Source: Ruminiclostridium sp. (GTDB taxonomy: Bacteria; Bacillota; Clostridia; Oscillospirales; Ruminococcaceae). From it: a stretch of 35,984 bases of DNA. A model generated the notes under the pieces. It was not told the DNA's origin, ran no database searches, and was given only the letters and a program-made list of their open reading frames with translations. Positions 3,930 through 31,092 of this stretch are shown here, one piece after another. How positions within the stretch are numbered: position 1 is the stretch's first letter; the number at the start of each line of letters is the position of its first letter. The position numbers and the translations under genes were made by a program. The DNA is taken from contig JAIKZF010000050.1 in assembly GCA_024682455.1 (NCBI GenBank), positions 1-35,984 of the forward strand. Reading direction: 5' to 3'.

Positions 3930-4829
3930 TCAGGCGTCCATTATCTCCGTTTCGGCGCCGTCGAGCGTTTTGCCGACCATACCGACGAGAGCCTTGCCGG
4001 GGCCGCACTCGACGAATTTCCCGATGCCGTCCGCCTGCATGGCGGCGAGCTCGGAGGTGAAGAGCACGGGCGAGAAGATATGGCGGGAGAGTATATCACG
4101 GATATCGCCGAAATCGGTCAGTCTGCCGCCGGTAACATTCGAATAGAACGCCTTCCGGGGCTCGCCGATAGTGATATCCTTTATCAGCTCCGCGAACTCG
4201 ATGCCGGCTTCCTTCATGTACTCGCTGTGGAAAGCCGCCGCTACCGCAAGCGGGAGAGCACGCTTCGCGCCCCGCTCCTTAAGCAGAGCCGACGCTTTTC
4301 CGACGCCGTCCTCGCTGCCGGCGATAACAGTCTGTACCTTTGTATTATAATTCACGGGAACTACATAATCCCCGCCGTCGTTCACCTGAGCGCACACCTC
4401 CGCGACGGTCTCCGCCGGAAGTCCGATGATCGCCGCCATTTTGCCGCCGTTCTTCTTTGCGGCCTTATCCATGCACGCGGCACGGTGCTTTATGAGCGTG
4501 AAGCCAGTCTCCATATCCACCGCGCCCGCCGTTACGAGCGCAGCGTACTCGCCGAGGGAATGTCCCGCCACGGCGTCGAAGCTGCCTCCGCGCTCCGTGT
4601 ATTTGCGCGCGCATATCAGCGACATCGTGAAAATAGCGGGCTGGGAGACGCGCGTCTCCGCGAGCTCCTCTGCCGTACCCTCAAACATGGCCTTCTTCAC
4701 ATCGAAGCCGAGTATATCGCTGCCCGCGGTGAAGATATCCTCATACAAAGCGGGATTTTCGTCGTATATCGCCTTTCCCATTCCCGGCTTCTGCGAGCCC
4801 TGACCTGAAAACAAAAGTGCTGTCTGCAT
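3930..4829 (-). CDS. fabD: Malonyl-CoA:ACP transacylase
   Basis: Transfers malonyl from CoA to acyl carrier protein and so feeds FabH and FabF. Residues 7-12 (FSGQGS) are the N-terminal oxyanion motif, GHSLGE at 89-94 carries nucleophile S91, R116 binds the malonyl carboxylate and H201 (AFHSEYM) is the catalytic base. I start at ATG 4829 (299 aa) because MQTALLFSGQGSQ is the normal N-terminus and AGGACGGAG lies 6 nt upstream; an in-frame ATG at 4853 would add eight residues. The gene faces away from the rest of the fab operon and shares its control region. In many Firmicutes fabD sits inside the operon between fabK and fabG. Confidence 0.95.
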   Translation of the reverse strand: MQTALLFSGQGSQKPGMGKAIYDENPALYEDIFTAGSDILGFDVKKAMFEGTAEELAETRVSQPAIFTMSLICARKYTERGGSFDAVAGHSLGEYAALVTAGAVDMETGFTLIKHRAACMDKAAKKNGGKMAAIIGLPAETVAEVCAQVNDGGDYVVPVNYNTKVQTVIAGSEDGVGKASALLKERGAKRALPLAVAAAFHSEYMKEAGIEFAELIKDITIGEPRKAFYSNVTGGRLTDFGDIRDILSRHIFSPVLFTSELAAMQADGIGKFVECGPGKALVGMVGKTLDGAETEIMDA

Positions 4830-4859
4830 AGCAAGCTCCGTCCTTTTAAACATTTTTTA

Positions 4860-4875
4860 TTGTGATATTTCACAA
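4860..4875. promoter_or_regulatory. Palindrome upstream of fabD (possible operator)
   Basis: TTGTGATATTTCACAA has 6-bp arms TTGTGA / TCACAA around four bases. It lies 30 bases upstream of the fabD start, where a fabD promoter would be expected (a minus-strand TTGTCA-N17-CACAAT would overlap it). The half-sites resemble Rex or CRP/FNR sites, but the spacing is 2 bp shorter than either usual form. The regulator is unknown. Confidence 0.35.
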
Positions 4876-4894
4876 GTTTTTTGACAAAAAATTG

Positions 4895-4923
4895 TTGACA
4901 AATAACGTAACTACTGTTATAAT
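4895..4923 (+). promoter_or_regulatory. Consensus promoter of the fab operon with overlapping operator-like repeat
   Basis: A perfect vegetative promoter: TTGACA at 4895-4900, 17-bp spacer, TATAAT at 4918-4923. An imperfect inverted repeat (AACTA ... TAGTT, about 4909-4927) covers the -10 box, which is where a repressor would bind. In other Firmicutes fab operons FapR or FabT bind at such positions, but neither gene is in this window. The predicted leader (from about 4930 to 5121) contains two small hairpins (GCGGA/TCCGC at 4936-4951; GCGCGG/CCGCGC at 5053-5067) and no T-tract. Confidence 0.8.
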
Positions 4924-5121
4924 AGTTATGTGTGTGCGGATATTTTTCCGCGGCTCACAGATATATTATATCATATAACGAAAAAAAAAGCAATGGGATA
5001 AGAAAATAAAAGAAAAATAAAGCCGACCACGCAGCCCACGGCAATATCGGCGGCGCGGCTTCCGCGCACATATCGCGCATATATAACATTTACGAAATAA
5101 AATCAATAGGCAGGACATAAA

Positions 5122-14526: not shown

Positions 14527-14661
14527 TTCTATCCCCTCCTTGTTTCATTATAATATATTTTTTGGAATAAATCAACAGTATTTTTCATTTATTTTAAGAT
14601 TTTTTGATTATTTTTTCGCAGGCGGGTGACCGGACGGCTCTGAGCGGTTATTTATGAGAAC

Positions 14662-14692
14662 AGCCCCGGAAAGCATTAAGCTTTCCGGGGCT
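14662..14692. other. Strong hairpin without T-tract
   Basis: AGCCCCGGAAAGC (14662-14674) pairs perfectly with GCTTTCCGGGGCT (14680-14692) across the loop ATTAA. Neither strand has a T-run directly after it (plus continues CAGTCTGTC, minus GTTCTCATA), so it is not a standard terminator. It lies between the acetyltransferase start and repeat copy 3. The rest of the 360-bp gap (14527-14887) is AT-rich sequence and the repeat. Confidence 0.55.
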
Positions 14693-14887: not shown

Positions 14888-16078
14888 TCATTCGGCTATA
14901 TGGCTTGTGATCTTTTGGGCTTTAAGCTCCCGCTTGTTTTCATACATGAGATTATCCGCCTGCGCGTAGAGCTCATCGTAATCGTAGCTTCCGCTCCCGT
15001 AGCCGAGCCCGCACGCTATAGAACAGAACAGCTTCATGTCCTCCTCATTCAGCTTGTCAAGAGCGAGCTTCCATTTTCTGCGGATCTCATTCGCTTCATC
15101 AAGGGTAACATTCACCGCGACCATAACATATTCATCGCCGCCCATTCTGAACCCGAAAACATTATCCGACACGACTTCCGCTATGCTCTTTGCAGCCTTG
15201 ATGATAAGCGCGTCGCCGTATTCGTGGCCGTAATTGTCGTTTATATGCTTAAGATTGTTGACATCGAAATTAAATACCGCGATGGAGCTCGGGCTTCCGA
15301 AATTCTCCTTTTTGAGCGCCATGTATTTTCCTTTGTTATACAGACCTGTCAGTTTGTCATGCTCGCTTTCATGGACTATCTGTTCCCGCAGTATGCTGTT
15401 CTCGATAAACAGTCTTATAACATTGTGCACCGACGCCTCCATAGGGTCTTCGGCAATGCGGTTATTTCCCTGCTTTATCAGGACTGCACATTCATGCCCC
15501 TGTATGGTCGTATTCAGGATACAGAAAAAACCTTCCGCTTCCTTGCCGCGCGCCAGCGAGAAGAACCGCTCATACCCGTCCGTATTTCCGACCTCGACTC
15601 TGACGAGTTCATCAGTATATGTCGAGCGTATGACCTTGTCCTTGTCCTTTATGAACATCACGACTTCTTCCGAGCCGCAGTAATCCGCAAGACCCGGCAG
15701 AAATGTGTCATAGGACATGGAGAGCTTTTTCATTATGCTCGACTGGAATCTGGACATATTCGTTACGCTGTTCGTATAGCAGGATACCTCGTGTATCAGC
15801 ATGGCGTATTCGCTAATATCCGTTATATGATAGCCGTAAAATGTCTCGTCTCCGCATTGGATAACGGTTTTTCTGACATTTACATATATCTCGTTATTCT
15901 TATCGAGGACCTCCTGTTCATCGAAGTTTTCGGAGATCTTATTTATCTTATCGAGCAGCATCCCGAGATCGTACTCGGTTTTCGGGCTCTGATAGAGGAG
16001 CCTGCCCTCCGTGTCGGTTATGAATATGTTTTTTTCTTCGGCTTCACGGTATTTTTTCAGTACTTCGCTTATATCCAT
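14888..16078 (-). CDS. Soluble diguanylate cyclase (GGDEY active site)
   Basis: Makes cyclic di-GMP from two GTP. The C-terminal GGDEF domain (about 235-390) is well preserved: D241KLTGLYNK, FDVNNLKHINDNYGHEYGD for Mg/GTP, and the active-site loop GGDEY at 313-317, where Tyr replaces the usual Phe. No RxxD inhibitory site is present at the expected place (304-307 reads SDNV). The N-terminal 230 residues have no membrane segment and look like a small PAS-type sensor (ITDTEGRLLYQ) followed by a GAF-like region. It is the last gene of the five-gene operon, 21 bases after the zinc-ribbon gene, with AAAGGA before the ATG. Confidence 0.88.
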   Translation of the reverse strand: MDISEVLKKYREAEEKNIFITDTEGRLLYQSPKTEYDLGMLLDKINKISENFDEQEVLDKNNEIYVNVRKTVIQCGDETFYGYHITDISEYAMLIHEVSCYTNSVTNMSRFQSSIMKKLSMSYDTFLPGLADYCGSEEVVMFIKDKDKVIRSTYTDELVRVEVGNTDGYERFFSLARGKEAEGFFCILNTTIQGHECAVLIKQGNNRIAEDPMEASVHNVIRLFIENSILREQIVHESEHDKLTGLYNKGKYMALKKENFGSPSSIAVFNFDVNNLKHINDNYGHEYGDALIIKAAKSIAEVVSDNVFGFRMGGDEYVMVAVNVTLDEANEIRRKWKLALDKLNEEDMKLFCSIACGLGYGSGSYDYDELYAQADNLMYENKRELKAQKITSHIAE

Positions 16079-16099
16079 ACATTCTGTCCTTTCAGCGGA

Positions 16100-18133
16100 T
16101 CACTGTGCATACTTCGCGATCAGCTCCGACAAATTGCCCTCGAACAAGGTATCGCCTCCCGCGCCGCATACCCTGTAGCCGTCGGTGTCAAAGCTGCCGA
16201 GTACCGTCAGGAAGACATTATCCGGCAGTCTCGCATAGCTCCTGCCGTTTCCGAAGGTGCCGAGCTCCGCGCCGGAAACGATGAAATAATTGTCCCTGCT
16301 GATCGGTATGACGGTACTTCCGTGCATATCCATAAGTCCGAGACCGCGGTTCTGCTTTCCGATAAGGAAGTATCTGTCCGTGCCGATCCTGTAACAGCCG
16401 AATTCATACCTCGGGCAGATCCTGCCGCCTCCGAACCCGGCGTTCGCGTTGGATATGAGCTTGTCGGCGGGTACGGAAAATACGGTATCCCCTCCGATGA
16501 TATCCATTAATACCGCATTGCTTTCGCCGTATTCGTCCTCTTCGCTGCTGAGGGAGTATATGGTATCGTCGAATATGTGTATGCCGTAAGGAGCCTGATT
16601 TCCGTAATGCTGCTTGTAGTTGAAGACATATATCGGTTTAAGGCTTTCGTCAAGCAGGATGCATGTGTCGGAATCCTCCGACGGGTCGTCTTTTTCCTTT
16701 ATCAGCGCGATATATGTCTTACCGTTCACAACAAATGTACCGTTGCTCGGCTCGGTCCTGCCGTCCGCAGAATGGATACGGACAACGCCGTCCGCGAAGC
16801 CTCCTCCGTTTTTGAGGCGTCCGGCGTTTATCCTTGTATATTTTCCGCTCCCGGTACGCTCATAACAATACACATTCGTTACATTGTTGGCGCAGTTGAT
16901 CTCGCCCGTCTCGTCGGAGACCTCGGGGCTGTGCGTGCTGATGTACAGTCTGCCGTTTGCTTCCGTTATCACAGGCAGATACTGGGTGTCATGCCTTCCG
17001 AGAGTTATCACGGTCTCGTCGTTTTCGTCTATGAGCTCGTAAAGCGCGGACGCGGTTTCACCCGTTCTGCCGCGGGTCTCCTTTGTAACGGAGGTCCTCA
17101 GCAGCAGATACGTGTCCCTGCCCTGCGAGGCGGAAACGCTGACCGCTTTGTATCTGACATCGCTGTCCGGGACATATATCCTTCCTGTTTTTCTGTTAAA
17201 AACGCATCTGCTTTTATCCCTTTCGGAGGAGCTGTGCAGTATCCGGGAGATCACACTTTCTCTGTAATAAAAGTATTCGACAAAGTATTCGCTCGGGTCG
17301 CCTTCATACTTCGGGACAAAAACATCTTTAAGCGCAGCCTCTCCCGTATCGCAGTCGTAAACGGTCTGTGAGGCTGTTTTCATTATATCGGAAGCGGCGT
17401 TGTAGCGCTCCTTGTTTGTCATCTTATCATATTCCCTGGGGGAGATGTGCAGCGCGTACTTGTCTCCGATAACACGAAGCGGGTATATATCCGATATACC
17501 GGTAACATTCTCCTGGTACTGATCCGCGAAGCATATACTTCCGTCACGCGCGATAAGCAGCGCGAGCCCGGAGGTCGCATACGGCTGATTTATTCCTGTG
17601 AACGCATAGAGAATATTCTTATATTCGGAGGGCGAAAGCATACTGTTGCTCCTGAACAGTATGAAGCTCATATAGCGCGTGCCGTTCCTGAAGCAGTCCC
17701 CGCTTCTTTCAAGCACGCCGTTTGCCACATTCGTGCCTGTCCAGTTCATATAGCACACGATCTCCGCGATATCATCTCCCCTCACGAGGAAGGGTCTCAA
17801 TTCCTTGCCGGGTGCGTTATCGTCTGCCGCGACGGCATAGCCGCCCCTGAATTCGCTTATCCAGGTGATGTGTTTGGTCTCCGCGAGCTGCTTATGTCCG
17901 GCTATCCATTTCTTATAGAAGGGCTCGTCTCCGTGATGAGGCAGGGAGAATTCCTTCTCTTCGTTATTCTTTACTTCATCAAGACGTTCGCCGCATTTAA
18001 GGCAGAACGCCGCTCCGCTGGCAAGCTCGGCTCCGCATTTCGGGCATACATTCCTCGGGATCTGCTTTGTGCCGCAGTATAAGCAGAACGCTGAATTTTC
18101 CGGAAGTTCCTTTCCGCAATTACGACATAACAT
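16100..18133 (-). CDS. Double zinc-ribbon protein with long beta-rich domain, unknown function
   Basis: I do not recognise the main domain. The first 50 residues hold two zinc ribbons (C3, C6, C17, C20 and C30, C33, C44, C47), the double zinc-ribbon type often found in bacterial signalling proteins. Residues about 70-677 are rich in beta strands with repeated patterns such as GKTYIALI, GRLYIST, DTIYSLSS and FLIGKQNRGLGLMDMHG, suggesting a beta-propeller or WG-repeat-like scaffold. There is no signal peptide or membrane segment, so it is probably cytosolic. Its Shine-Dalgarno sequence (AAGGGGGG) directly follows the stop codon of the peptide synthetase gene, pointing to tight co-expression and perhaps a complex. 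Confidence 0.65.
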   Translation of the reverse strand: MLCRNCGKELPENSAFCLYCGTKQIPRNVCPKCGAELASGAAFCLKCGERLDEVKNNEEKEFSLPHHGDEPFYKKWIAGHKQLAETKHITWISEFRGGYAVAADDNAPGKELRPFLVRGDDIAEIVCYMNWTGTNVANGVLERSGDCFRNGTRYMSFILFRSNSMLSPSEYKNILYAFTGINQPYATSGLALLIARDGSICFADQYQENVTGISDIYPLRVIGDKYALHISPREYDKMTNKERYNAASDIMKTASQTVYDCDTGEAALKDVFVPKYEGDPSEYFVEYFYYRESVISRILHSSSERDKSRCVFNRKTGRIYVPDSDVRYKAVSVSASQGRDTYLLLRTSVTKETRGRTGETASALYELIDENDETVITLGRHDTQYLPVITEANGRLYISTHSPEVSDETGEINCANNVTNVYCYERTGSGKYTRINAGRLKNGGGFADGVVRIHSADGRTEPSNGTFVVNGKTYIALIKEKDDPSEDSDTCILLDESLKPIYVFNYKQHYGNQAPYGIHIFDDTIYSLSSEEDEYGESNAVLMDIIGGDTVFSVPADKLISNANAGFGGGRICPRYEFGCYRIGTDRYFLIGKQNRGLGLMDMHGSTVIPISRDNYFIVSGAELGTFGNGRSYARLPDNVFLTVLGSFDTDGYRVCGAGGDTLFEGNLSELIAKYAQ

Positions 18134-18147
18134 AGCATATCCCCCCC

Positions 18148-21126
18148 TTACTTTTTCCTTGTGAACTCTGACGCGACGATGCCGTTATCGGCGGTCCTTA
18201 CCCGCTCTTTCAGCTCCCCGACGGTAATATCGCTGCCGTCCGCGCATTTTGTCAGTTCCTTTGCCGTTTTTACGAATATCTCACAGAAACGGCTTATGCT
18301 GCTGTCGTCGTATCTGCTCGCGGCATAGTCGATCATGAGCCTGATACCGTCCCTGCCATCGAGTATCTCGATATCGAGAATGGTCTGCGACGCGGCCTGA
18401 TTCTGCCTTATATCCACAGTCTCTATGCCGAGAGAGTCCGACACGGTCATATCGCGGAGATCCTGCTGATAAAGCACATAGGCCGCTTCGATATCTCCCA
18501 CCTGCGAGATGGTATCGACATAAGGATAGACGCTGTGCTCTATGCCTCCGCGCACCTGCTCGTGCGCGTTTTCAAAAACAGATATTATACCGGCGTTATC
18601 ATCAAATCTGAAGCCTACGGGCAGATCGCGGAACAGAAGTCCCACGGCGGACATCGACCGCGTATCCTCGCGCCCGTTGTATATCCACGACAGGCGTATA
18701 TCGTTCAGATCGTTGTAGACGGATACCGCAAGTCCCGCCGCTGTGATGAAGAACTCGTTCCTCGATATGCGCAGCTTTTCTTCGACCGCGGAAAGCTCTT
18801 CCGTTCCGATACCGGGGTCACATTTCAGCTCGCCCATTTCGTTTTCGCGGGATTCATGGTCGGCCGCAGGGTATGTGCTCCACTCGGTGCTTCCGTATTT
18901 TTCCTCGAAGTACTTTCTGCTCTTCTCATAGAATTCCGTGCCGACGGCTCTCTCGCGTTCCTCAAGCAGAAGACAGTAATAGTCGGGAACGAGCTCCGCT
19001 CCGGAGACCGCGCGCTTTACGCTGTCCATGAACACCTTGAACGAGGTCCCGTCAAACATTGTGTGGTGTACATCAAAAAATACATATACGGCTGTTTCGG
19101 TCTCAAAGACCCTGCACCTGTGCAGAAGCCCGCCGATGATCTTAAACGGCTGCACGAGCGTATCCTTCAGCGCGTCGAGCTCCCAGTCGTGGATCTGTTC
19201 TACGGTTATGTTCTTCATCAATTCCGGCGCGTATTTCTGCACGATATCACCGTCGTCGCTGAATTCGAGCGCTGTGAGCAGAGCCGGATGATTCATTATC
19301 GCCGCCTGCATCGCGGCAGCGGCTTTGCCGGCCGTCATCAGGGACTTGTCGAGCCTGAACATCGTAAACAGGTTATACATCGTGGATTTCGGGGTATAAA
19401 GCTGATAATCCACCATGTAGAGCTGCTCCGGAGTGAGCGGGTGAGGACGCTTCATTGCTCTTGCGTTCCCTGCCGCCTCCGACCCGCTGTCGATGCCGGA
19501 ATGAAGGGTATGATAAAGCTTCGCGATCATTGCCGGAGTGCGTCCGCGGAATATTTCGGAGGCATTCAGCCCAGGAAGCCCGCATTCCGCTATCACCTGT
19601 ATCGAGCGGAGGGAATCTCCGCCAAGAGAATAGAAGTCGTCGCTGCTGCCCATACGGCCGATATCCAGCACCTTTGCCATAGCTTCACATATTTTCGCCT
19701 CGGTCTCGTTTGCCGGAGCGGTATAATTCCTGCCGATATCCGCGTTCTCCGGCAGCGGCAGAGCCTTTCTGTCAAGCTTTCCGTTCGGTCTGAGCGGCAC
19801 CGCGTCCACCTTTACATAGTAGGACGGTATCATATAATACGGCAGGTATTCCAGCAGCACCTCGCGCAGAGCGTTGGCTTCTATCCTGATGTTATCCTTG
19901 TAGTACGCGCAGAGATAAGCCCTGCCCTTATCCTCTACACACTTGACCGCAGCCCAGTCCGTATGGAGCACCTCGCGCAGCGCCGCCTCCACCTCGGCGG
20001 GCTCTATGCGGTTTCCGTTTATTTTTATCATATCCGTGCTTCTTCCGAGGATCAGAAGATCGCCGTTTTCATCCTTCTTCGCAAGGTCGCCCGTGTGGCA
20101 CATTCCGTTTACGAACGTCCTTTCGGTCTCCTCGGGCAGACCTATGTACCCGCGCACAAAGGGAGCTTCAAAGCACAGCTCGCCCGTTTCGCCGTCCCCG
20201 ACGGGATCGCCGTCCTCGTTAATGAGGAGAGTCCTGACTCCGGGCTTTCCTACCGGGCATATCCTGTACGGCTTATCTATGCCGAAGAGACTGACCGCGA
20301 AGCCGCTTTCGCTCATCGCGTATACATTTATCAGCCTGACATTCTTCACAAATACATTGTTCGCGGGTTCGGAGCCGACAAACAGAGTTTTCAGGAAGGG
20401 ACCGGTGCTGTCCCCGAGAGCCTGAACATAAGACGGCGTAAGGAATGTGACCGATATCTGCTTTTCCATGAAGAAGCTCTGCAAAAGGACAGGGTCCTTC
20501 AGAGTCGTATACGACACGATAAAGATCCTGCTGTTCTCCGTATTCAGCGCGGCAAGCAGCAGTATCACCGACGCGATGAAATTCAGCGGAACGAGTACAG
20601 CAAGCCTTTCGCCCTTGTCAAACGGCACCCTGCCGTTCAGCTTTATGGAATCTATACACATCTTAAGGCTGCCGTATTCATGCACTACGCCCTTCGGCTT
20701 TCCCGATGTTCCCGATGTATAGACAGCGTAAGCCGCGTCATGGTCGCCCGTCGCGCAGAAGCCGTCAAGCGGCTCGGCAAGCATGATCTCGTCCCAGTTT
20801 GAGGCGCTTATGCGTATCCTGCACCCGCAGTCGCGGCGGATATACTCCGCCCTTTCGGGAGCGTAATTGTCCTCAACAAGCACGAACGCCGCTCCCGCGC
20901 GCCATACTCCCAGCATGGCGACAACAGGCAGTACGCCTCTCGGAAGATCTATGAGCACAAAGTCTTCCCTGCCTATGTTTTTGTTTTTCAGCCAGCCATA
21001 CACTCTTGCGGTCATTTTGCTGAGCTGGGAATATGTTATTCCTTTTGAATGTGCTTCGTCAAACAAAACAGGCGTATTTCCGCTGCTTCCGGCGAAGCTG
21101 TCGAGCCTTTCGATTATCTGCGCCAT
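18148..21126 (-). CDS. Lone NRPS module: adenylation, carrier, condensation
   Basis: 992 aa. The adenylation domain (about 1-460) has YTSGTSGKPKG at 136-146, NVYAMSES at 267-274, GELCFEAP, HTGDL at 344-348, GRSTDMIKINGNRIEPAEVE, and catalytic K450 in NGKLDRK. The carrier domain (about 470-540) has LGGDS with S505 for phosphopantetheine. The condensation domain (about 560-980) has an intact HHTMFDG at 687-693. There is no thioesterase, reductase or epimerase. By known NRPS chemistry it would activate an acid, load it on itself and join it to an amine, which must be free or on another carrier. In the adenylation pocket the usual Asp that holds the alpha-amino group appears to be I184, so the substrate may not be an alpha-amino acid. 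GGAGG precedes the ATG. The signalling context is unusual for an NRPS. Confidence 0.92.
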   Translation of the reverse strand: MAQIIERLDSFAGSSGNTPVLFDEAHSKGITYSQLSKMTARVYGWLKNKNIGREDFVLIDLPRGVLPVVAMLGVWRAGAAFVLVEDNYAPERAEYIRRDCGCRIRISASNWDEIMLAEPLDGFCATGDHDAAYAVYTSGTSGKPKGVVHEYGSLKMCIDSIKLNGRVPFDKGERLAVLVPLNFIASVILLLAALNTENSRIFIVSYTTLKDPVLLQSFFMEKQISVTFLTPSYVQALGDSTGPFLKTLFVGSEPANNVFVKNVRLINVYAMSESGFAVSLFGIDKPYRICPVGKPGVRTLLINEDGDPVGDGETGELCFEAPFVRGYIGLPEETERTFVNGMCHTGDLAKKDENGDLLILGRSTDMIKINGNRIEPAEVEAALREVLHTDWAAVKCVEDKGRAYLCAYYKDNIRIEANALREVLLEYLPYYMIPSYYVKVDAVPLRPNGKLDRKALPLPENADIGRNYTAPANETEAKICEAMAKVLDIGRMGSSDDFYSLGGDSLRSIQVIAECGLPGLNASEIFRGRTPAMIAKLYHTLHSGIDSGSEAAGNARAMKRPHPLTPEQLYMVDYQLYTPKSTMYNLFTMFRLDKSLMTAGKAAAAMQAAIMNHPALLTALEFSDDGDIVQKYAPELMKNITVEQIHDWELDALKDTLVQPFKIIGGLLHRCRVFETETAVYVFFDVHHTMFDGTSFKVFMDSVKRAVSGAELVPDYYCLLLEERERAVGTEFYEKSRKYFEEKYGSTEWSTYPAADHESRENEMGELKCDPGIGTEELSAVEEKLRISRNEFFITAAGLAVSVYNDLNDIRLSWIYNGREDTRSMSAVGLLFRDLPVGFRFDDNAGIISVFENAHEQVRGGIEHSVYPYVDTISQVGDIEAAYVLYQQDLRDMTVSDSLGIETVDIRQNQAASQTILDIEILDGRDGIRLMIDYAASRYDDSSISRFCEIFVKTAKELTKCADGSDITVGELKERVRTADNGIVASEFTRKK

Positions 21127-21180
21127 ATCCGATCCTCCGTAACCCGGCAGAGTACGGTCCCGCCACTCTGCCTGCTGTCC

Positions 21181-21252
21181 TTAACGCTCTATATTTATCA
21201 TTCCCGCGAAGCCTGTGACGTCGAACACGTCATATACAGCCTGTACGGGCTT
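21181..21252 (-). pseudogene. C-terminal remainder of the STAS gene beyond an in-frame TAA
   Basis: After the TAA at 21253-21255 the same reading frame continues for 23 sense codons to a second TAA at 21181-21183. The encoded peptide contains VYDVFDVTGFAGMI, which matches the conserved last helix and strand of RsbV/SpoIIAA-type STAS domains. So the stop looks like a single nonsense change in a gene that was 103 codons long. Confidence 0.75.
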
Positions 21253-21492
21253 TTATACCGTAAGCCTTCCGCTCTTTGCCGCCATTGTCTTATGCAGGCT
21301 CAGGATCACACGCAGCCCCGAAGACGATATATAACTGACTTCCCCGAAATCGAGGCCGAGATCGGTTATGCCGTCAAGCGACTCCCTCACCTCGTCACCA
21401 AGCCTCGCGGAGGTGCCGGTGTCTATCCTTCCCCCGATGAAAACAGTCAGCTTCTCCTGCTCCTGTTTTTTGCTTATCTTAAGCTCGCTCAT
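21253..21492 (-). CDS. STAS-domain anti-anti-sigma-like protein, truncated by nonsense codon
   Basis: In partner-switching systems such a protein (RsbV/SpoIIAA) is dephosphorylated by a SpoIIE/RsbU phosphatase and then binds an anti-sigma kinase. The visible 79 residues cover strands 1-4: LTVFIGGRIDTGTSARL, LGLDFGEVSYISSSGLRVIL, with the phosphorylatable Ser in the ISSSG loop (residues 55-58 region). I start at ATG 21492, which has AAAGGAG 8 nt upstream; an upstream frame to 21564 is not family-like. The product stops at codon 80, about 23 residues short, although the missing part is still present in frame. It lies between the phosphatase (64 bases) and the synthetase. Confidence 0.85.
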   Translation of the reverse strand: MSELKISKKQEQEKLTVFIGGRIDTGTSARLGDEVRESLDGITDLGLDFGEVSYISSSGLRVILSLHKTMAAKSGRLTV

Positions 21493-21556
21493 TTCATTTA
21501 CTCCTTTTGGTTCGTATTGGGTACCGTCAGGGTGAGCGGCGGCCTGACCCGCCTGT

Positions 21557-23710
21557 TCACACAAGCTTTACCGCAAGCATGGTGAGATCGTCGAACTGGT
21601 CGGCTTCTCCGACAAAGCCGTCCAATGCCTCCTTGACCTTCGGGAGGAGCTGTCTCGGTCCCAGATCCCTGTCGGCGTTGAGGGCTTCAAGGAGCCTGTC
21701 TGTGCCGAAAAGGACGCCGTCCGCGTCTGTCGCCTCGGGAACTCCGTCCGTGTACAGGAAAAGCTCTCCGCCCTTTTCTAGCGTTATCTCATATTCCTTA
21801 TACTTCATTCCGCTCATTCCGCCGACAACAAAGCCATGCTTGTCTTTGAGAAGCTCGAATTCGCCGTTCGCCTTCCGCAGTATCGGGAACTCATGTCCCG
21901 CGTTCGACGCGGTGATCTTTCCCGTGGAGATCTCAAGCACACCGAACCATACGGTCACGAACATTTCCTCTTCGTTCTTCTTGCATATCGCCGCGTTCGT
22001 CTGTTCGAGCACCTTCGCGGGGGAATCGCCCTGCATGGCGTAATTGTTTATAAGTATCTTGGACATCATCATGAAAAGAGCCGCGGGAACTCCCTTGCCC
22101 GAAACGTCGGCCATTACCATGCCGAGGTGATCGTCGTCTATGAGGAAGAAGTCGTAGAAGTCTCCCCCGACCTCCTTCGCGGGAGTCATGGTCGCGTATA
22201 TATCCACCTCGGGTCTGTCCGGGAACGCGGGGTATATGTTCGGGAGCATATCCGCCTGTATCTTTCGCGCGAGCCCAAGCTCTGTGCCTATGCGTTCCTT
22301 TTCCTTCGTGATGTTCGTTATATCTATAATGTACTGCTTTGTCTTCTTTGAAAGGTCGTCGAACGATTCCGCGAGCACCTGTATCTCGTCCCCGGTCTTA
22401 TAGATGTCCTTCATCTCAAACAGCTTGCCTGTTCTGCCGCCCTCCTGTATATCGGCGGTCATGCTCTCTATCGGCTCGACTATCCTTCCCGCGAAGTACA
22501 TGACTCCGCAGATGCTTATCAGCAGCACGCACACCATGATTATCAGGACCGCCTGTGCAGCCGAATCGCTGCCGACCCTGAAAGCGTCGGCGGCGTCCTC
22601 GTTTATCTTGTCGTATTCGGAAAGCAGGGCTTTCGTAGGCCTCTCGGTCAGTTCCCTGTCAACGACCATTATCGTCGTCCAGTTTATGACTCCCATCGGT
22701 GTCCCGCACATATAGTAGTCCCTGCCGCCGACGTTTACCGTCCGCAGCCCGGTCTCCGCCCTGAGAGCGTCGGTCACGAATCCCGCCAGCCCGGCATTTT
22801 CGTCGGTCCTGATATCTTCGGCGGTCTCGGCGGTCTCGACCTTGAAGATGCCGTTGTTCTCCGGAGCAAGTATTACCTGACCGTTGTTATTGATTATCAC
22901 TATGAAGCTGTTCTCCGATGCCGACTGCTCAACATAAGCCGCCATCTCGTCAAGGAATATGTCTATGCCCACGACTCCGATCAGCTTCCCGTCAGTATAT
23001 ACCGGAGCGGAACACGTCACGCATACGGTGCCGGTAAACGCGTCCTTCATCACCCCGGAGAAACACAGGCTTCCGCTGTCCGCCGCGCACCTGTACCACG
23101 GTCTTTCGCGGACAGGGAAATGTATCAGCTCGCCGTTCTCATCGAATTTGTTTGAGGATATCCGATCGACACCGATGTGCGTTCCGTCCTCAAAGCCGAT
23201 ATACACGTTCGTATCGTACGGGGAGCTGGTGTACATCGCCTCCATGGCGTCGGTCATGTGAGCCGCTACCGGCAGATACTCGGACTTTGTGTAATCCACG
23301 CCCTCGGCGTAAAGCACCTGCGCGGTCACTATGCCGTCATTTGCGGGGTCGGGCAGGTATACCTCTCCCGGCTCTACCCTGTCCTTATCACGGAACAGAC
23401 CCTCGGCAAGCGTCCGCAGCGTGCATACGTCCTTTTTGACCGATATGAACATATCGTCGGCGATCTGCGCCTGCAGAGCGTTTATCTTGACCATTGAGTC
23501 CTCAAGAGTGCGGTGCATGGTGTTTTCCGACAGGCTTGTGATCGACTCCTGCTGCTCGGCCTTGGCTTTCCCGACCACATTGGTCAGCGTATTCGACTGA
23601 TAGATCGACACACAGCCGAATACAAATATCACGGCAAGCAGGTTGGAAAGCACGAGCACCAGTATCTTGTTATGCAGTCCTCCTATTGTTATACCGAAAA
23701 TCTTCTTCAT
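21557..23710 (-). CDS. Membrane sensor phosphatase: Cache, HAMP, SpoIIE/PP2C
   Basis: 717 aa. Membrane segment at about 14-34, an extracellular double-Cache ligand-binding domain at about 50-380 (FPVRERPWYR, GVVGIDI), a second membrane segment at 386-408, HAMP at 409-465, a linker helix, then a SpoIIE/RsbU-type PP2C phosphatase at about 500-717. Metal-binding motifs are intact: AKEVGGDFYDFF (D517), MADVSGKGVPAALF (D535), LYTDGVPEA and FDDLTMLAV. It should sense a small extracellular molecule and dephosphorylate a STAS protein, the obvious partner being the next gene. GAGG lies before the ATG. It is the first gene of the operon, behind a promoter and a structured leader of about 200 nt. Confidence 0.92.
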   Translation of the reverse strand: MKKIFGITIGGLHNKILVLVLSNLLAVIFVFGCVSIYQSNTLTNVVGKAKAEQQESITSLSENTMHRTLEDSMVKINALQAQIADDMFISVKKDVCTLRTLAEGLFRDKDRVEPGEVYLPDPANDGIVTAQVLYAEGVDYTKSEYLPVAAHMTDAMEAMYTSSPYDTNVYIGFEDGTHIGVDRISSNKFDENGELIHFPVRERPWYRCAADSGSLCFSGVMKDAFTGTVCVTCSAPVYTDGKLIGVVGIDIFLDEMAAYVEQSASENSFIVIINNNGQVILAPENNGIFKVETAETAEDIRTDENAGLAGFVTDALRAETGLRTVNVGGRDYYMCGTPMGVINWTTIMVVDRELTERPTKALLSEYDKINEDAADAFRVGSDSAAQAVLIIMVCVLLISICGVMYFAGRIVEPIESMTADIQEGGRTGKLFEMKDIYKTGDEIQVLAESFDDLSKKTKQYIIDITNITKEKERIGTELGLARKIQADMLPNIYPAFPDRPEVDIYATMTPAKEVGGDFYDFFLIDDDHLGMVMADVSGKGVPAALFMMMSKILINNYAMQGDSPAKVLEQTNAAICKKNEEEMFVTVWFGVLEISTGKITASNAGHEFPILRKANGEFELLKDKHGFVVGGMSGMKYKEYEITLEKGGELFLYTDGVPEATDADGVLFGTDRLLEALNADRDLGPRQLLPKVKEALDGFVGEADQFDDLTMLAVKLV

Positions 23711-23908
23711 ATCCGCACCTCACAGTATTTTCCCGTGATGCGGAGATCAATGCCTCTTCATCACGGTCTTCCTCGCAGGCAGGATACCGGAAACGCTGCT
23801 CCTCTCACGCTCGCGGGAGACCCCGGTATCCGCTTTACGGGCGGGTCACGGCGCACTCCGCAGGACTGCGGGGCTGCTCCGGCTTCCGCCCGGATACAAT
23901 ATCCCATA
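23711..23908 (-). promoter_or_regulatory. Structured 5' leader with mutually exclusive stems (riboswitch candidate)
   Basis: About 200 nt of GC-rich leader separate the promoter from the phosphatase start. Stem A pairs 23892-23897 with 23826-23831 and continues as 23886-23891 with 23839-23844, enclosing a CCGCAG/CTGCGG hairpin. Stem B pairs 23823-23831 with 23782-23790 over 9 bp. A and B share 23826-23831, so only one can form. Stem C (CCGTGATG/CATCACGG, 23733-23740 with 23759-23766) lies just before the ribosome binding site. No T-tract follows, so any control would act on translation. I could not match it to a known riboswitch consensus. Confidence 0.6.
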
Positions 23909-23915
23909 ATAGTAT

Positions 23916-23944
23916 ATTATACCACATAAATGCAAGAAAGGCAA
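23916..23944 (-). promoter_or_regulatory. Promoter of the five-gene signalling/NRPS operon
   Basis: On the minus strand TTGCCT (23939-23944), a 17-bp spacer and TATAAT (23916-23921) form a good vegetative promoter, with the start expected near 23908. It lies in an AT-rich island directly upstream of the GC-rich leader. The remaining 110 bp up to the next gene show nothing clear. Confidence 0.75.
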
Positions 23945-24055: not shown

Positions 24056-25762
24056 TTATTTCGGCACCTTTCCGGTCCCGTGGCAGCGATAACAGAATTT
24101 CGGCATCGATGCTTTTTTGTCAATGCCGGAACCGCCGCATTTCGGACAGGTGACCCCTGTTTTTTCAATGGGGCTGGGTCTGTAGTCGGTATGCTTTACG
24201 GTTCCCGCGGGTTTTATGGTGATGATAAATTCGACGTAATGCTTATTGCTTAACTTGCCCGTCACGTTAACATCTGTGCATTGGAGCATAGCTCCTATCC
24301 TGACGGTGCCGGTCTTCTTGCCTATGACCATAAGGGTCGGATAGTTGTCGGTGAGTTTGTCGTAATCGGCAAGACCTTCGCCCTCCATAATATCCCATGT
24401 ATAAGCATAGATCGCTGCGTTCGGGATATACGGATTGGTTATGATTATATAATCGTCTGCCGACAGATCGTATTTATAGATCCGCTCGGGCTCTATGTTC
24501 TCCCTCTGATAGAACGGGTCTGTATCGTTGAACAGCCTGAACCCGCTGAGATGAACGGAGTTTGTCTTGTCACCCGGGTCCTTGAAAGACGCGCTGTCGA
24601 CCTCAAATTTATAATATTTATACTTCTTGGTGCCGCCCCTTATAAAATATATGTATTCTTTCGGTTTTACCTCAAGCTCCGCAATGGCGGCTCCCGTGAC
24701 GCTGCTGAGCTTTTCCCAGCTTGAAGAATTCTGAGAGGGATCGGACGCCGCGTTGCTTCCGTAAACAGTCCACGCGGTAGGCGTCTGTCTGCTCGGAGAT
24801 TCGTAGGTGTCGAACGGCGAGTAAAGCCTGTAACCGGTTATCGGAGCTGCCTTTGAAAGCTTCCAGATAACATACGCCTTTTCTTTTGAGGTGTGTTTCG
24901 ATTCCCACTTGTCTTTAGTTCCGCCGTAGAAAAGATTATCCTTTACATCGCCGCCGTACCAGCTTTTTGAACCCGATATCGCCGTAACATATACGGTCGA
25001 GCCTATCCCGACTTTGCCTGATGCGGCGGTTTCTTCGCTCTTGCTGTCATCGGTATTCTTTGAAGACGAAGAGGACGATGCCGCCGCGACCGTGACTGTC
25101 AGCCTGAAGGTATCGCCGTTGGTATAAAAGCCGAGCAGATCTGCCTTGCCCGCTTTCAGAGCCTTGAATTTGTATGAGGAAACTACCTCGACTATGCTTT
25201 TGTCCATCGAGAACATTGTCGGCGAGTATTCACCGAAACCGTCAAACATCTTACTCACGGAGTATGTCTTGCCGGCTGTGGCGGTCGTCTTTTTCTGAAC
25301 ATGAGAACCTTTCTCCGCAGAAAGAACATAAGTCATATTTCTTACATATTCATTCTTTGCTATTTTTATCTTGAGATAGTATGTGCTTTTCTTTACTTTT
25401 ATCGAGTTGCTGAGCAGCCCCTTTAAATTGCCGGACGCCAGGGACTTATAATTGGAATCGTACAGGGAAAAGGTGCTTGCGGAGCTTACGTTCCATTTAC
25501 TGTCGGTGGTGAACTGGATATCGCCCGCATGATATATCGGGAGCTTGAAATAGAAGTACCCGCTGTATATCGCGTCATAGCTGATAGCTTTTCTTTTGAG
25601 CACGTGCCAGCCTTCCGCATTTTTAAACGACGACTTTACGGATTCGGAGGCAATGGCACTCACCATGGGAGTAAGAGACAGATCGGGTGAAAAGAACGGC
25701 CCGCAGAAAAGCAATGCTGCCGCGGTAAATACGGCTGTCAGTTTCCTTAACAGTTTTTTCAT
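24056..25762 (-). CDS. Secreted protein with C-terminal DnaJ-type zinc finger
   Basis: 568 aa with a signal peptide (about 1-37, ending near VSAIA). Residues 45-235 are beta-rich with paired patterns such as YSGYFYFKLPIYHAGDIQF. A Ser-rich linker (SSSSSSK) follows at about 230, then a discoidin-like (F5/8 type C) region at about 260-420: GSKSWYGG, YVIWKLSKAAPITGYRLYSP, PTAWTVYGSN and KYYKFEVDS. A further beta domain precedes the C-terminus, where CPKCGGSG and CYRCHGTG form a DnaJ-type zinc finger. The domain identities are read by eye; the function is unknown, possibly binding of a surface polymer. GGAGGA precedes the ATG; the gene has its own promoter. Confidence 0.7.
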   Translation of the reverse strand: MKKLLRKLTAVFTAAALLFCGPFFSPDLSLTPMVSAIASESVKSSFKNAEGWHVLKRKAISYDAIYSGYFYFKLPIYHAGDIQFTTDSKWNVSSASTFSLYDSNYKSLASGNLKGLLSNSIKVKKSTYYLKIKIAKNEYVRNMTYVLSAEKGSHVQKKTTATAGKTYSVSKMFDGFGEYSPTMFSMDKSIVEVVSSYKFKALKAGKADLLGFYTNGDTFRLTVTVAAASSSSSSKNTDDSKSEETAASGKVGIGSTVYVTAISGSKSWYGGDVKDNLFYGGTKDKWESKHTSKEKAYVIWKLSKAAPITGYRLYSPFDTYESPSRQTPTAWTVYGSNAASDPSQNSSSWEKLSSVTGAAIAELEVKPKEYIYFIRGGTKKYKYYKFEVDSASFKDPGDKTNSVHLSGFRLFNDTDPFYQRENIEPERIYKYDLSADDYIIITNPYIPNAAIYAYTWDIMEGEGLADYDKLTDNYPTLMVIGKKTGTVRIGAMLQCTDVNVTGKLSNKHYVEFIITIKPAGTVKHTDYRPSPIEKTGVTCPKCGGSGIDKKASMPKFCYRCHGTGKVPK

Positions 25763-26237: not shown

Positions 26238-26313
26238 TGGTTGGACTGGCGGGATTCGAACCCACGGGATGAGGGAGTCAAAGTCCCTTGCCTTACCACT
26301 TGGCGACAGTCCA
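26238..26313 (-). tRNA. tRNA-Gln (anticodon TTG)
   Basis: The minus strand folds as a complete cloverleaf: acceptor TGGACTG/CAGTCCA, D stem GCC/GGC, anticodon stem AGGGA/TCCCT with loop CTTTGAC (anticodon TTG, reads CAA and by wobble CAG), T arm GTGGG-TTCGAAT-CCCGC, then discriminator A and an encoded CCA. It lies between the terminator of jag and its own terminator. Confidence 0.96.
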
Positions 26314-29868: not shown

Positions 29869-31092
29869 CTATGAGCCGAAGTTTCCGTACTTCTTGACGA
29901 ATTTCTGAGCCTCGATATATTCGTTCGCGAGGATATCGAAATCTATATTGCAGGCGGCGGAATAAACGACCACCTTGTCCCAGTCGCCCTCCTCATAGCT
30001 CTGCGAGAGGTGGAAGATATCGCCGAACACGCCTCCGCCGGTGATACCCTCTTTGATCTCGGTCGAGACCGGCAGGTCCGCTAGAGCCCTTTTCAGCGCC
30101 TCCTCGTCGTGACTGCCCGTTACTATCGAGATAAGTCCCATCAGGTAGACCTCGTTGCTGCGGGAGCCGACGCTTCCGCCGGAGTTGCGCGAGATACGCT
30201 CGCAGAATCTCGCCCTGAACAGCGCGAGGCGCAGTATCTCCGCCGGGGAGTTGCGGTTGAGCCTCTGGAGCCCGACGAGGTATATCCATTCCTTAAGTCT
30301 GTCTATGCCGAGCATTACAAGCGCCTGACGCACCGTGGAGACGGTATTGCCCTTGTCGGCGCAGAGCTGGTTGATGACCTTGAGCAGCTTTATCGTGAGC
30401 ACAGGGTCGGTGGATATGACCGCCGATATGTACTCGATGTTGGGCTCCGGGCTGTACAGCAGCGCGATTATCTCCAGGAAGGTCTTTATCATCGGGCCGC
30501 CGGAGCGCTTTGTCTCAAGCACCGGTCTCGCGAAGAAGCTCCCGCGCATATAGTCGATGTCCAGCTCCCGCGCGAACTCGAAGCTCTCCTGGTCGTCGAT
30601 GCCGTCCGCCAGCGCGCGCTTTCCGCGCTCGTGGCACTTCTTTACGGTATATACTATCTCGTCCGCGTCCGAGAAGATGTTGAAGCGCAGGATATCCGCG
30701 AAATTGAACAGCTCCTCGTTCTCCTCACTGTACAGGAAGCCCGAGAGCGCTATCGTGTAGCCGAGCCTTTTCAGCCTCATTACCCTCTGGAGCGAGCCGG
30801 CGTCCGCGAGAAGCACGGTCGGTATCTCTATAACTATCTTTTCCTTCAGGAACAGCTCATGGAAGCTGTTTTCCAGCATAAGCTTCGAAAATCGTATATA
30901 CGCGGGTCTGTTGTCGAAGAGCGGAAGCATATTGAGCTTGATATACTCCTTTGCCTCCTCTATCTCTTCCGGCGTGACCAGCGATTCGTCGCCTGTGGGA
31001 TTTTTTCTGCTCGCAAAGGAGTACAGCATTTCATACATATCGGTGCCTGCGCTCTGATTGAATACTGCCTGCTTTGAAATAAGAAAACTCAT
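29869..31092 (-). CDS. Degenerate EAL plus HDOD signalling protein
   Basis: 407 aa of the YuxH / CdgJ type. The N-terminal half (about 1-195) has the EAL-domain layout (SKQAVFNQSAGTDMYEMLYSF, KIVIEIPTVLL, DYMRGSFFARP), but the catalytic EAL and metal-binding motifs are absent, so it should not cleave c-di-GMP; it might still bind it. The C-terminal half is an HDOD domain (about 200-400): ISTDPVLTIKLLKVIN, TVRQALVMLGIDRLKEWI. HDOD proteins act in signalling and motility in other bacteria; the output here is unknown. It is the last gene of the FapA/ABC operon. Confidence 0.85.
   Translation of the reverse strand: MSFLISKQAVFNQSAGTDMYEMLYSFASRKNPTGDESLVTPEEIEEAKEYIKLNMLPLFDNRPAYIRFSKLMLENSFHELFLKEKIVIEIPTVLLADAGSLQRVMRLKRLGYTIALSGFLYSEENEELFNFADILRFNIFSDADEIVYTVKKCHERGKRALADGIDDQESFEFARELDIDYMRGSFFARPVLETKRSGGPMIKTFLEIIALLYSPEPNIEYISAVISTDPVLTIKLLKVINQLCADKGNTVSTVRQALVMLGIDRLKEWIYLVGLQRLNRNSPAEILRLALFRARFCERISRNSGGSVGSRSNEVYLMGLISIVTGSHDEEALKRALADLPVSTEIKEGITGGGVFGDIFHLSQSYEEGDWDKVVVYSAACNIDFDILANEYIEAQKFVKKYGNFGS

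Follow-up and report, generated by a model that had tools for sequence, protein, structure and literature searches.

Gene content of the locus

The window analysed here is a stretch of 35,984 nucleotides, contig C48 of a Ruminiclostridium sp. metagenome-assembled genome (MAG; G000, 1.94 Mb in 109 contigs, 86% complete), and the system in question is a row of five genes on its minus strand. They encode a SpoIIE phosphatase with a Cache domain, a STAS protein, a nonribosomal peptide synthetase (NRPS)-like enzyme, a zinc-ribbon protein and a GGDEF protein. A sequence-only reading of this DNA had delimited the same five open reading frames (ORFs) and the same intergenic gaps, which on recomputation are 64, 126 (54 if the later STAS stop at 21181 is used), 14 and 21 bases, and Pfam backs each of the domains that it assigned. 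Comparison with related genomes places the locus within a widespread cassette as one of its variants; the core that is widely found is STAS plus NRPS, and the five-gene set is limited to one clade.

The NRPS-like enzyme (992 aa, 18148..21126, minus strand) has Pfam matches to AMP-binding (2.3e-42), PP-binding (9e-5) and Condensation (3.2e-31), in the order adenylation (A), carrier (T) and condensation (C). Aligned with 80 relatives (81 rows), it shares intact HHxxxDG and GGDSL motifs with all of them. In the A-domain pocket, whose positions were assigned by eye from an alignment with LgrA and the A4 motif, Phe278 and Gly301 are found in 81/81 rows and Phe299 in 73/81, and Asp235 is absent from all 81, its place being taken by Val, Ile or Ala. 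Asp235 is described as contacting the alpha-amino group of the substrate (PMC10512218) and as conserved across A domains that activate alpha-amino acids (PMC12283262). The absence of this residue therefore makes an acid without an alpha-amino group the probable substrate, and since the pocket is nearly invariant, the A domain probably loads one and the same acid throughout the family. The best solved relative is LgrA (linear gramicidin synthetase), which likewise has A, T and C domains whose motifs are intact. Unlike LgrA-type modules, the enzyme is a single A-T-C unit without Asp235, and it has no thioesterase or other dedicated release domain; its C-terminal end is the condensation domain, which suggests release onto a free nucleophile.

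The first two genes encode the phosphatase and the switch protein. The RsbU-like membrane sensor phosphatase (21557..23710, minus strand) combines two hydrophobic segments with dCache_1 (4.2e-15) and SpoIIE/PP2C (1.6e-48) domains. The RsbV-like STAS protein (21253..21492, minus strand, ATG at 21492; Pfam STAS 1.6e-9) carries the serine motif ISSSGLR, but its frame is interrupted by an in-frame TAA at 21253-21255, which is followed by 23 STAS-like codons up to a TAA at 21181. The Pfam match reads through the in-frame stop, and the copy in L038, the window's closest relative (labels of the L0xx and L1xx type denote fetched stretches), is intact. Among the nearest STAS matches of 60 loci, that of the window is the sole one ending before model position 94. 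The stop may be recent, with a switch that is perhaps breaking down in this strain, or it may have arisen as an assembly error.

For the zinc-ribbon protein (677 aa, 16100..18133, minus strand), which the sequence-only reading had put forward as a possible scaffold, Pfam gives zinc ribbons only (Zn_Ribbon_1, 6.1e-15). An AlphaFold2 model built from eight sequences reached a predicted local distance difference test (pLDDT) score of 71 and a predicted template modelling (pTM) score of 0.61. The structures matched by Foldseek have low TM-scores to the model (0.09-0.23), and many of the top ones are, going by their names, presumably beta-propellers, so the body is tentatively described as beta-propeller-like. 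The last gene (14888..16078, minus strand) encodes a diguanylate cyclase-like protein with a PF00990 match (5.6e-24), and the active-site motif reads GGDEY in 4/4 aligned sequences. Inspection by eye found no RxxD inhibitory site in it. A poor model (pLDDT 58) and weak Foldseek hits tentatively point to a PAS-GAF arrangement of the N-terminal part.

Recurrence of the cassette in related genomes

A tblastn search (E <= 1e-3) of 84,980 species genomes with the 992-aa protein as a query detected 311 places encoding a relative. The best 80 of the 311 (57-95% identical) were fetched with their flanks and together with the window make up 81 loci, so the sample leans to near relatives; several of the contigs stop near the NRPS gene. 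Judging by their titles, most of the relatives are ruminant-gut MAGs that carry the labels Ruminococcus, Oscillospiraceae, Lachnospiraceae or Clostridia; there are also some Bacilli and one Erysipelotrichaceae. Neighbour clustering, Pfam annotation of representatives and scans with hidden Markov models (built from neighbours in the same loci, counted at E < 1e-5) revealed a recurring set of STAS, RsbW-like HATPase_c_2 kinase, SpoIIE phosphatase and NRPS, usually with one of three downstream genes.

On the same strand and within 5 kb of the NRPS gene, STAS is found in 60 of the 81 loci, RsbW in 29 and SpoIIE in 34, and at least one of the three in 62. For instance, L079 (Ruminococcaceae bacterium P7, apparently an isolate) has SpoIIE, RsbW and STAS; L099 (Lachnospiraceae AC2029) contains the enzyme and an esterase gene with no switch genes close by. 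STAS lies within 450 bp upstream of the NRPS gene in 47 of the 79 loci whose contigs reach that far, and these 47 are spread over the NRPS tree, which was built by a quick method. As an internal control, both strands of 68 flank sides of about 10 kb were divided into a near half (0-5 kb) and a far half (5-10 kb): STAS was found 31 times near vs twice far, RsbW 15 vs 2, SpoIIE 18 vs 2 and MATE transporters 8 vs 4. The families thus co-occur beyond chance, as the sequence-only reading would expect, but the five-gene combination that it described belongs to a single clade (zinc-ribbon 8/81, full-length GGDEF 4/81). That reading was also aware of no described system with this set, and among the papers listed by our searches of the open-licence PubMed Central (PMC) literature, no title or start of an abstract describes partner-switch genes combined with an NRPS-like enzyme.

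The slot downstream of the NRPS gene is occupied by a carboxylesterase in 57 loci, a MATE transporter in 9, a zinc-ribbon protein in 8 and other genes in 7. Among the 52 esterases whose end is complete, 44 have a hydrophobic C-terminal stretch. In 18/81 loci there is a MATE gene within 2 kb, so the absence of a transporter, a point of the sequence-only reading, is not general in the family. The zinc-ribbon type forms one side of a fully supported branch of the NRPS tree, and all eight of its members among the 81 have partner-switch genes within 5 kb. A GGDEF gene is present in five zinc-ribbon loci (the window, L038, L041, L042 and L043) and an HD-GYP-like gene in L039, L040, L041 and L044 (by Pfam on L040, by 80-88% identity in the others). 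Eight of nine zinc-ribbon-type loci therefore have GGDEF or HD-GYP beside the NRPS gene; the ninth, L136, comes from a same-genus genome outside the 81 and has neither on its contig. Over all 81 loci, GGDEF lies on the same strand within 5 kb in eight, five by the orthologous protein (window, L038, L041-L043) and three by domain match alone, and the full-length orthologue is found in four, window included.

The anti-sigma kinase had been reported as missing. It is indeed absent at the window locus, where a scan with the cassette-model profile found no RsbW-like kinase, but it is a common member of the cassette. Within the zinc-ribbon clade, RsbW matches occur in L040-L044, and only the window, L038 and L039 are without one. 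The gene lies directly upstream of SpoIIE in L042 and L043, between SpoIIE and STAS in L041, and just upstream of the NRPS gene in L040 and L044. On the L038 contig there is a PF13581 match below the cut-off, on the opposite strand. The search for a RsbW-like kinase elsewhere in the genome, which the sequence-only reading had proposed, was fruitful: contig C22 carries a RsbW-like kinase and a STAS gene directly before an alpha-amylase-like ORF (L118:753-2748; the amylase named by eye). This kinase is 44-49% identical to those of L041-L043 and is a candidate for acting on the locus in trans, short of demonstrated orthology. A kinase missing from the system as a whole is ruled out by this pair and by the RsbW-like genes of the 29 loci. 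In addition, contig C78 of the same genome has STAS, kinase and sigma genes in a row, read as SpoIIAA-SpoIIAB-SigF.

Two further arrangements of STAS genes were observed. In L039 (8747-9973), a leucine carboxyl methyltransferase-like domain is fused to a C-terminal STAS domain. Contig C94 of the window's genome (L130:3693-6710) has a row made up of STAS, a membrane acyltransferase-like ORF (HGSNAT_cat/Acyl_transf_3) and SpoIIE; about 2.7 kb from the row, on the opposite strand, lies an ECF-type (extracytoplasmic function) sigma ORF.

Twelve MATE proteins have a C-terminal tail of more than 110 residues, and these tails, taken as a profile, match that of RsbW (hhalign probability 98.4, E = 9.6e-15). 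In seven loci (L049, L054, L071, L072, L084, L096 and L102), the tailed MATE gene is directly upstream of STAS, and these transporters are therefore suggested as STAS partners; the remaining tailed MATEs are in L041, L042, L093, L094 and L114. An ATP-binding cassette (ABC) transporter ATPase in L043 (18806-19900, Pfam) matches the tail profile weakly (E = 2e-5), so a domain of this kind is possibly present in a second class of transporters.

Outside this family, the same-genus genomes contain about 22 further NRPS or AMP-binding places, of which 14 were fetched. STAS, RsbW or a tailed MATE is present in seven of the 14 (L155, L156, L157, L158, L160, L164 and L166), a share that is biased upwards because several were picked for a kinase-like domain nearby. 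In L161 there is a long MATE in which no tail was detected, and L159, L162, L163, L165, L167 and L168 have no such gene. Furthermore, five genomes gave nine phosphopantetheinyl transferase (PPTase) matches, four of which have SpoIIE and RsbW-like domains no more than about 3 kb away (L155, L177, L178 and L179). The NRPS loci L155 (G007:C11), L158 with L179 (G024:C86) and L157 (G024:C127) stand beside STAS, RsbW and SpoIIE genes, and those on G007:C11 and G024:C86 also adjoin a PPTase gene. In L177 (G034:C27) and L178 (G007:C60), where the fetched stretch contains no NRPS, the PPTase match is next to SpoIIE and RsbW-like domains, in one instance a SpoIIE-RsbW fusion ORF of 663 aa.

Possible targets of the switch

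Sigma factors are the best-known proteins under the control of partner switches, and RsbW-like kinases classically bind them. A sigma scan was performed with nine ORFs from eight sigma loci as queries (one of them probably no sigma), and it recovered the ECF-type ORF of C94 (L130) as a control. It detected no linked sigma factor in the window locus, as the sequence-only reading had stated, and a sigma-70-family ORF in one of the 81 loci (L092, 4.1 kb from the NRPS gene).

The cassette shares a sensor PP2C phosphatase, a STAS antagonist and a HATPase_c_2 kinase with the RsbU-RsbV-RsbW-SigB module of Bacillus, as that module is outlined in PMC12826045. Unlike the SigB module, 80/81 cassette loci have no linked sigma factor, and their neighbours are genes for biosynthesis and transport; the window, having neither a local kinase nor a linked sigma factor, is not classed as a sigma-B module. 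SypE-SypA of Vibrio fischeri also places a STAS protein under opposing kinase and phosphatase activities, with biofilm as the output, but both activities reside in a single response-regulator protein, and the locus is one for polysaccharide (PMC8256260, PMC12826045). STAS-type partners are reported to switch diguanylate cyclases elsewhere (PMC8457831, PMC5085249). In SiaABCD of Pseudomonas aeruginosa, as in the window, genes for a phosphatase, a small switch protein and a diguanylate cyclase (in the window a putative one) stand together; the switch protein SiaC is a DUF1987 protein structurally related to STAS, which in its unphosphorylated form binds and activates the cyclase SiaD (PMC8457831). 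Unlike the window row, the Sia operon includes a kinase, and unlike the cassette it has no NRPS, zinc-ribbon or esterase gene in the description given there (PMC8457831). STAS proteins are likewise described as partners of diguanylate cyclases in HsbA-HsbD of P. aeruginosa (PMC5085249) and in BgrV-BgrR of Sinorhizobium meliloti (PMC8457831), with no biosynthetic enzyme mentioned for either in the text consulted. With genes for a phosphatase, a STAS-fold protein and a putative diguanylate cyclase in one row, the window set resembles, by analogy, a Sia/Hsb-type module to which a biosynthetic arm has been added. The gene neighbourhoods of HsbA-HsbD and BgrV-BgrR differ from that of the window.

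Our preferred explanation, to which we give a probability of roughly 0.5, is that a Cache-gated partner switch controls a small-molecule pathway and, in this clade, the level of cyclic di-GMP (c-di-GMP), in a cassette found mainly in ruminant-gut Clostridia. An outside ligand would bind the Cache domain of the membrane phosphatase, which would then dephosphorylate a STAS protein previously phosphorylated by a RsbW-like kinase; the kinase is encoded in the cassette in many relatives and, for the window, would be supplied from elsewhere in the genome. The dephosphorylated STAS protein would bind its target and switch it. Since sigma genes are almost absent from the cassettes, we infer that STAS acts on one of the output proteins encoded in them. 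In the window, the analogy with SiaC-SiaD, HsbA-HsbD and BgrV-BgrR makes the GGDEF protein the most likely target; in other cassettes it may be the kinase-like MATE tail. The carrier domain of the enzyme would be charged with an acid that has no alpha-amino group, and the condensation domain at the end would transfer this acid to a free amine or alcohol, so that an amide or ester is formed. Taken together, the gene content suggests that the cassette encodes a signal-gated small-molecule pathway.

A few partner switches act on diguanylate cyclases, and the cassette, if this explanation is true, would extend the switch to control of the synthesis and export of small molecules. It would also define a large family in a major gut habitat in which the switch is combined with an NRPS-like enzyme, with an esterase or an exporter, and with transporters fused to kinase-like domains. 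STAS with the MATE tail and STAS with GGDEF are the candidate switch-target pairs, and the orphan product is probably common to many species.

Several observations weigh against this explanation. In the window itself, the STAS gene is interrupted and the kinase is not local, and in L038 the GGDEF protein lacks an internal stretch, residues 118-249. The GGDEF gene is confined to the zinc-ribbon clade and is therefore not the target in most cassettes. No partner-switch gene is found on the same strand within 5 kb in 19/81 loci, among them 7 of the 34 loci whose flanks measure at least 5 kb on either side; the linkage is thus strong, not obligatory. NRPS homologues without switch neighbours had been named by the sequence-only reading as what would refute it; such loci do exist and speak in part against it. 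The enzyme is also patchy within the window's genus: counting the window, 6/36 genomes have an orthologue, which in one case is split into two pieces. No PPTase was found in the window's genome, a MAG that is 86% complete; one is present in 5/5 same-genus genomes searched, and the absence is uninformative as a feature of the system. Finally, L136 has a sigma-like ORF (4461-5036) that follows its zinc-ribbon gene at a distance of about 0.8 kb, and the window's genome has 21 sigma-70 region-2 matches, so that a sigma target elsewhere is possible.

A more far-reaching version of the idea is tentative and somewhat doubtful. It holds that partner switching has been rewired in ruminant-gut Clostridia from sigma factors to natural-product loci, the unphosphorylated STAS protein directly gating the NRPS-like enzyme or the MATE exporter with a RsbW-like domain as docking site. 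Synthesis or export would thereby be turned on and off post-translationally by an extracellular signal, in one clade together with c-di-GMP. Multi-module NRPS loci of the genus might be wired in a similar manner.

A conventional sigma switch, in which the kinase would bind a sigma factor from another part of the genome and the enzymes of the operon would be regulon members or passengers, appears unlikely. It would fit the classical role of RsbW-like kinases, the 21 region-2 matches and the sigma or sigma-like ORFs of L092 and L136, but a sigma ORF occurs in 1/81 cassettes while STAS, kinase and phosphatase genes recur beside the NRPS gene, and kinase-like domains fused to MATE transporters point to partners other than sigma factors.

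We consider it improbable that the genes are neighbours, even co-transcribed, and yet functionally separate, held together by shared induction and block transfer with no protein-level switching of the enzymes. The 19 loci without partner-switch genes would agree with such a separation, as would the swapping of downstream partners (57 esterase, 9 MATE, 8 zinc-ribbon, 7 other) and the distribution of partner-switch genes on the NRPS tree, which requires 14 changes and is modestly clustered (10/500 shuffles as low). The position of STAS within 450 bp upstream of the NRPS gene in 47/79 loci across the tree speaks against it, as does the fact that partner-switch genes also adjoin a number of other NRPS loci, and of PPTase genes, in the genus.

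Likewise improbable is a decaying regulatory part with only the enzyme still mattering in this lineage (a reading compatible with the preferred one for the family): the in-frame stop in STAS, the lack of a cassette-model RsbW match in the window and L038 loci (with the sub-cut-off PF13581 match of L038 on the other strand) and the shortened GGDEF protein of L038 would fit it, but single MAG assemblies can carry errors, and the ratios of nonsynonymous to synonymous substitution rates between the window and L038 (SpoIIE 0.17; STAS 0.23 over the first 79 codons; NRPS 0.11; zinc-ribbon 0.17 over 663 codons; GGDEF 0.11-0.16 over the two parts kept in L038) indicate constraint until recently across the comparable parts of all five genes.

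Promoter region, leader and other features of the window

One promoter and a structured leader had been proposed upstream of the five genes. A promoter-like site is present at 23916..23944 on the minus strand (TTGCCT-17-TATAAT, with an extended -10; 10/12 matches), but the 10.4-kb region has 14 such sites vs 8.8 +/- 2.9 in shuffles, so one site alone is weak evidence. By eye, a TATAAT box was also seen 5' of SpoIIE in L038, where it is at the same place, and in L041. The leader (23711..23910, minus strand) is weakly structured: its fold is slightly better than those of shuffles (z = -1.75), with 6/200 shuffles as good. The leader of L038 is far shorter, so this element is not conserved. An Rfam scan of the leader gave sub-threshold matches and none at the gathering score, and this together with the lack of conservation rules out a riboswitch. 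The sole Rfam gathering-score match in the window is a tRNA gene at 26241-26313 on the minus strand.

Further features flank the five genes. A strong inverted repeat was seen by eye 3' of the GGDEF gene (14661-14692) and was not picked up by the terminator scan. Upstream of the operon, a secreted-looking protein of 568 aa is encoded at 24056-25762, with no Pfam match. At 29869-31092, Pfam identifies a protein with EAL and HDOD domains, possibly a second gene tied to c-di-GMP.

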